Assembly (NCBI GenBank): GCA_947650365.1
Contig: OX393553.1
Span: 70,107,463 to 70,171,462 of the forward strand
Direction of reading: 5' to 3'
DNA length: 64,000 bases
Source of the DNA: Chamaelirium japonicum
Lineage: Eukaryota > Streptophyta > Magnoliopsida > Liliales > Melanthiaceae
Made by a program: the position numbers and the translations under genes. This document shows, piece by piece, positions 32,212 to 61,202 of the stretch. Each line of letters begins with the position of its first letter. Position 1 is the stretch's first letter. Under the pieces are notes generated by a model that saw only the letters and a program-made list of their open reading frames with translations, was not told where the DNA came from and made no database searches.

Positions 32212-32337
32212 ATATATATATATATATATATATATATATATATATATATATATATATATATATATATATATATATATATATATATATATATATATATATA
32301 TATATATATATATATATATATATATATATATATATAT
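32212..32337. repeat. (AT)n microsatellite at the EDEM stop codon
   Basis: About 126 bp of AT dinucleotide. On the minus strand the stop codon TGA (32339-32337) runs straight into TATATA, so the predicted 3' UTR begins with this tract. Confidence 0.95.

Positions 32338-61202: not shown

Follow-up and report, generated by a model that had tools for sequence, protein, structure and literature searches.

The stretch of Chamaelirium japonicum DNA analysed here (64,000 nucleotides, C5:70107463-70171462; hereafter the window) carries eleven of the fifteen exons of a GH47 gene, which we regard with high confidence as the one complete MNS5/AtEDEM1-type gene found in the assembly, lengthened at least in part by transposable elements (TEs) and accompanied by what would be truncated copies. 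Its value lies in the set, in which a complete gene stands beside three near-identical loci that have its exons 6–15, the loci differing by private insertions in the same introns. Since the loci also differ in a few exon variants and in the length of a (TA)n microsatellite behind the stop codon, reads from RNA or methylation sequencing could be traced to their copy of origin. Matched empty sites in the same nucleus would then allow one to measure what a single intronic insertion does to methylation and splicing.

Gene model of the complete locus

The gene was rebuilt on the minus strand from splice sites and reading frames, within an assembly of 1.52 Gb and 3,253 contigs. In the window it comprises 11 exons between 61202 and 32337, whose coding sequence adds up to 1,423 bp in a span of 28,866 bp. 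All ten introns in the window are of the GT-AG type with compatible phases, the large ones measuring 5,497, 2,828, 5,223, 11,328 and 1,871 bp. These eleven exons, ten junctions and intron sizes are exactly those given by an earlier sequence-only reading of the same DNA; its first exon was rejected as the true start of the gene, as four more exons are present upstream. To look for the 5' end we added 30 kb beyond the window and sought the missing exons with short plant EDEM protein motifs, accepting candidates on reading frame, splice sites and agreement with the GH47 profile. The resulting model of 15 exons, together with its longest intron inside the window, is as follows (window coordinates unless marked C5).

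C5:70193982-70193831, minus strand: exon 1, start codon and hydrophobic N-terminus, outside the window
C5:70188283-70188241, minus strand: exon 2, outside the window
C5:70188151-70188086, minus strand: exon 3, outside the window
C5:70187988-70187927, minus strand: exon 4, outside the window
61103..61202, minus strand: exon 5, first in the window, ends with the predicted catalytic Glu141
60737..60919, minus strand: exon 6
55191..55239, minus strand: exon 7
54922..55101, minus strand: exon 8
54554..54674, minus strand: exon 9, predicted catalytic Asp281
51644..51725, minus strand: exon 10
51476..51561, minus strand: exon 11, Gly350 and Ala354
46152..46252, minus strand: exon 12, predicted catalytic Glu395
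34824..46151, minus strand: intron 12, 11,328 bp
34682..34823, minus strand: exon 13, Gly431
34436..34586, minus strand: exon 14
32337..32564, minus strand: exon 15, Cys-rich tail and TGA stop

The whole gene spans 54,184 bp and encodes 581 residues in 1,746 bp of coding sequence including the stop, and all 14 introns are GT-AG. Its largest intron is intron 4 with 19,262 bp, located outside the window, followed by the 11,328-bp intron 12. Across intron 4, the AG at the end of exon 4 and the C at the start of exon 5 join into a serine codon. The joined 15-exon product shows no internal stop, no frameshift and no lost splice site, which together with a full-length match to the GH47 profile bears out the proposal of an intact GH47 EDEM-type gene. 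The same reading had considered that the exons might belong to a pseudogene with stops in the missing 5' part; the four upstream exons proved free of stops, so that this objection fails. The corrected model also indicates that annotation from the window alone would lose exons 1–4 behind the 19.3-kb intron.

Protein family and orthology

We compared the 581-residue protein with Pfam and obtained a match to GH47 (PF01532) of 375 bits, covering profile positions 1–455 of 455 and far beyond chance, whereas a scan of NCBIfam gave no match, as expected for a library of prokaryote families. Alignment to solved class I mannosidases covers most of the protein, the best solved relatives by sequence being 29te (an alpha-1,2-mannosidase fusion) and 8zpw (an EDEM1-like chain). 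Glu141, Asp281 and Glu395, which we take to be the GH47 catalytic residues with Glu141 as the acid, are aligned with the same residues in the solved GH47 chains.

Arabidopsis MNS5 is described as a protein of 574 residues whose gene has 15 exons separated by 14 introns, Gly343 being encoded in exon 11 (PMC9062699). Likewise, Ala347 and Gly424 are reported as conserved in MNS5/AtEDEM1, with Pro and Cys in their place in MNS4/AtEDEM2-type proteins (PMC9302962). Using an offset of +7, which was taken from the length difference (581 versus 574 aa), Gly350, Ala354 and Gly431 of our protein correspond to these three residues, and all three agree. The 15 exons and 14 introns likewise equal the AtMNS5 count. 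MNS5/AtEDEM1 is a soluble ER protein with a signal peptide; in our model the N-terminus encoded by exon 1 is hydrophobic. Because all three diagnostic residues agree, we file the window gene as MNS5/AtEDEM1 type, a classification by exon number and three residues. The redox cysteine pair of the Htm1/EDEM2 type, described as Cys65-Cys408/445 (PMC7835635), is absent in our alignment, which has Lys and Gly where 29te and 8zpw have Cys; AtMNS5 is likewise reported to have Gly where the MNS4 type has Cys (PMC9302962). Mannosidase activity of Arabidopsis MNS5 has been reported by others, and by orthology the GH47 alpha-1,2-mannosidase encoded here would trim the glycan C branch of misfolded ER glycoproteins.

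Arabidopsis MNS5/AtEDEM1 (At1g27520) thus resembles our gene in its GH47 domain, its 15 exons and 14 introns and its protein length (574 versus 581 aa), but differs in occupying 5.0 kb (9,558,752-9,563,751; PMC9302962) against 54.2 kb here. It also differs in that the Arabidopsis sources, in the parts available, mention no truncated copies. Among the papers found by literature searches, no title or abstract opening described this locus or copies of MNS5 whose introns are filled with TEs. The gene is an ordinary one of its kind and apparently complete.

Truncated copies of exons 6–15

A GH47 profile search of the assembly returned the same exons at four loci, the complete locus (A) and three further ones (B, C and D). 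A chromosome-size contig carries both A (C5:70.14-70.19 Mb) and B (C5:71.36-71.40 Mb), oppositely oriented and separated by about 1.2 Mb.

C5:71364863-71392965, plus strand: copy B
Contig C191 (660 kb, not chromosome-size): copies C and D, about 232 kb apart
Window 23715..61022: block common to A and C, about 37.3 kb, interrupted by indels, its 3' limit (about 23715) taken from the comparison with copy C only

In all three copies exons 6–15 are intact, keep the splice sites of A and encode the same protein sequence. B, C and D match A only downstream, in gene sense, of window position 61022, which lies in intron 5, 81 bp past the end of exon 5, and all three stop matching at this very position. 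Upstream of the breakpoint the three copies have a sequence in common, matching a repeat that is also found upstream of the gene at A and in its intron 4. Exons 2–4 gave a single match in the 1.52-Gb assembly, as did a 301-bp stretch around exon 5, the search skipping very common words so that one match is not proof of uniqueness. A stretch of intron 4, outside the window, also proved to be a repeat, with at least 72 matches across the assembly among the matches listed, 40 of 4,387 candidates having been scored.

Because both the breakpoint and the upstream sequence are common to B, C and D, we infer that a block of about 37 kb with exons 6–15 and without exons 1–5 was copied and became linked on its 5' side to a repeat, and that the block together with this new upstream sequence was then copied once more, which would have given loci B, C and D. 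As A has the exon count of the Arabidopsis gene, we take it as the original form, of which B, C and D would be truncated copies.

The copies further differ in their introns. Intron 9 of copy B contains a private copia element, about 5.2 kb long and flanked by a 5-bp duplication, and intron 6 of copy D contains a private one that is 97.6% identical to that of B, with four of its five duplicated bases in agreement. Copia domains are present in both elements, and within each of them the LTRs are identical over the 121 and 130 bp aligned in B and D, respectively. For copy C, no private intronic insertion was seen. Absent from A but common to B, C and D are an insertion in intron 11, about 1.1 kb long with a duplication of about 10 bp, and a segment of intron 12 measuring about 390 bp. 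The (TA)n microsatellite, which directly follows the stop codon (window 32213-32336), counts 62 units in A and 12, 42 and 50 in B, C and D.

Insertions in the introns of the complete locus

Insertions were identified without a repeat library. The sequence-only reading had counted at least nine transposon insertions in the large introns; four were confirmed in the introns within the window, together about 7.8 kb, so that this count is borne out in part.

Window 38743..43154, plus strand: LTR element in intron 12, antisense to the gene, 4.4 kb, 5-bp target duplication
Window 57350..57958: hAT-like element in intron 6, 609 bp, 8-bp target duplication and terminal inverted repeats
Window 35578..37882: older LTR-like pair in intron 12, direct repeats of about 429 bp, 90% identical, target duplication not seen
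Window 32663..33130: palindromic MITE-like element in intron 14

The 4.4-kb element carries LTRs of about 1,230 bp that are 98.7% identical and a gag-like frame at 40133-41911. The region holds 53 frames of at least 85 aa, exonic ones included. Of the 14 in-window intronic frames compared with Pfam, only this gag frame scored above the cut-off, with three weak matches below it. By eye, the frame at about 49146-50155 is LINE-like, and it has no Pfam match.

Alignment gaps show that both the 4.4-kb LTR element and the 609-bp hAT-like element are missing from B, C and D, and the empty sites were inspected in sequence in B and C for the former and in B for the latter. Since the LTR element is missing from all three sister copies, it is probably young, as had been proposed, and its LTRs differ at 11 of 1,226 aligned sites. 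This number nevertheless exceeds what the divergence of the copies predicts, as at most 4.7 differences are expected if the insertion followed the split of copies 0.38% apart (P 0.0085). The excess may reflect faster mutation of methylated LTRs or an older insertion polymorphism. As for the suggestion that the element carries its own promoter, we found one TATA-like match in the LTR, a consensus match only. No AATAAA occurs in the LTR when searched in its own orientation.

All three private LTR elements, those of A, B and D, are oriented antisense to the gene, an outcome that chance would give in one case in eight. An antisense bias of endogenous retroviruses in human introns has been recorded (PMC1794541). 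The observed to expected CpG ratio in the seven introns longer than 1 kb was 0.60–0.98, compared with 0.59 in the coding sequence. The introns are thus not depleted in CpG relative to the coding sequence, so that they bear no sequence trace of long methylation.

Divergence among the copies

In chained alignments the copies differ by 0.29–0.55%; the share of differing columns between A and the others is 0.394% for B, 0.388% for C and 0.376% for D. We counted 117 variable columns among 22,061 intron columns, leaving out large insertions and columns within five of a gap. Of these, 63 separate A from the other three, 19 are private to B, 13 to C and 18 to D, and four group B with C; no other pattern occurred. 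At a grass substitution rate of 6.5e-9 per site and year, a difference of 0.38% would place the split of the copies roughly 0.3 million years ago.

Exonic changes are few. Among the four copies we saw three in 1,321 columns, all silent, where 7.0 were expected from the intron rate (P 0.08), and no nonsynonymous change against 5.1 expected (P 0.006). The changed site in exon 10 sets A apart from B, C and D, whereas those in exons 8 and 13 are specific to D. The purifying-selection signal in these numbers is weak, because exons may simply mutate less. The 3' flank is more diverged than the gene, with 121 mismatches in 6,629 columns between A and C (window 23715-30970; 97.4% identity), and minisatellites lie in this diverged flank.

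Alternative and preferred readings of the four loci

The four loci could partly be an assembly artefact, in which uncollapsed haplotypes or misplaced haplotigs appear as separate loci and the private insertions are heterozygous alleles. We treat this as a serious possibility, on balance somewhat doubtful. It fits the small differences between the copies (0.29–0.55%), the placement of C and D on a 660-kb contig instead of a chromosome-size one, and the collinearity of B and C over most of the 60 kb compared, bar one private insertion. However, C and D lie about 232 kb apart on one contig and so represent at least two truncated loci unless the contig is wrong, exons 2–5 occur in A alone with no second haplotype of them found, and A and B occupy one contig in opposite orientation, 1.2 Mb apart. 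In another reading the copies are themselves expressed, a newly acquired promoter upstream driving N-terminally shortened proteins or regulatory RNAs. Intact exons 6–15 and splice sites in all three copies, encoding an identical protein, agree with such expression, which we nonetheless consider unlikely: in copies this young, intact frames are little proof, the adjoining upstream sequence corresponds to a repeat, and mannosidase activity is not expected without exon 5 and the predicted acid Glu141. More specifically, the truncated copies might be transcribed from the repeat-derived upstream region and be under selection as a non-catalytic partner of MNS5 or as an RNA regulator. This proposal is more improbable still; if true, selection on the shortened copies would explain why all three exon changes are silent.

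Least probable, in our view, is that the window gene is itself a pseudogene in decay whose 19.3-kb and 11.3-kb introns have put an end to its expression. Very long introns and private insertions are what it would draw on, but two other GH47 loci in this genome look as long, and none of the three exon changes among the copies alters the protein, against the 5.1 nonsynonymous ones expected. With 15 exons free of stops, frameshifts and lost splice sites, we rejected this reading for want of any lesion.

In the preferred reading, a complete gene with truncated copies, the gene would owe its length at least partly to intronic transposons, as shown for the four described above (about 7.8 kb) and presumably for more. 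Later private insertions would then have entered the introns of A (the 4.4-kb LTR and 609-bp hAT-like elements) and of B and D (copia elements at different sites). The insertions were probably tolerated, as the splice sites are intact and the three private LTR elements are antisense.

Gene length and comparison with known systems

Three other GH47 loci in the assembly extend over 47.8, 57.7 and 11.7 kb between their outermost profile matches, these being spans of matches and not gene models, and the 57.7-kb span resting on three matches. Phosphoglucose isomerase, used as an unrelated control, covers 24.6 kb from first to last match. In this small sample, long genes seem usual for this genome and long introns not special to the gene studied here.

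In oil palm, the MANTLED gene reportedly harbours an intronic retroelement, Karma, whose methylation matters for the gene. Our locus is alike in having a retroelement in an intron, whereas mis-splicing and methylation belong to the oil palm case. In rice, 5,809 heterochromatic introns are reported from 4,227 gene models, with transcription at many of the loci, and loss of IBM2 is reported to lead to premature polyadenylation in heterochromatic introns (PMC7145194). The OsIBM2-regulated introns of rice resemble those described here as long TE-bearing introns inside genes; they differ in that methylation and transcription were measured there (PMC7145194). By analogy with rice and Arabidopsis, intronic heterochromatin together with IBM2-type read-through would mask the insertions and may be the mechanism by which they are tolerated. 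The genes AcGNMT1/2 of Areca catechu, with introns above 17 kb and 6 kb (PMC12046898), provide a further likeness, namely very long introns in genes of a transposon-enlarged plant genome. They differ in encoding an unrelated enzyme, and the part of that report available mentions no dated insertions across near-identical copies (PMC12046898). The silencing of TE-bearing introns, for which the sequence-only reading had put the locus forward as a natural test, is thus already known as a phenomenon, and what the locus adds is matched filled and empty sites.

Neighbouring sequence in the window

Several tandem arrays lie in the first 31 kb of the window, downstream of the gene. A minisatellite with a period of 67 bp occupies 3464-5237 with 23 overlapping copies in register, and further arrays have periods of 58, 95, about 106, about 145 and 200 bp. 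A degenerate CA/CCCA-type repeat of about 2.5 kb lies at 9500-12050, where the GC skew reaches −0.84 in the 10001-12000 bin, an extreme strand asymmetry. Between 14057 and 25699, three copies of an LTR-like stretch, spaced 5.9 and 3.9 kb apart, surround a copia-type gag frame and a frame of pol-like appearance with no Pfam match. The block common to A and C ends near these LTR-like stretches.
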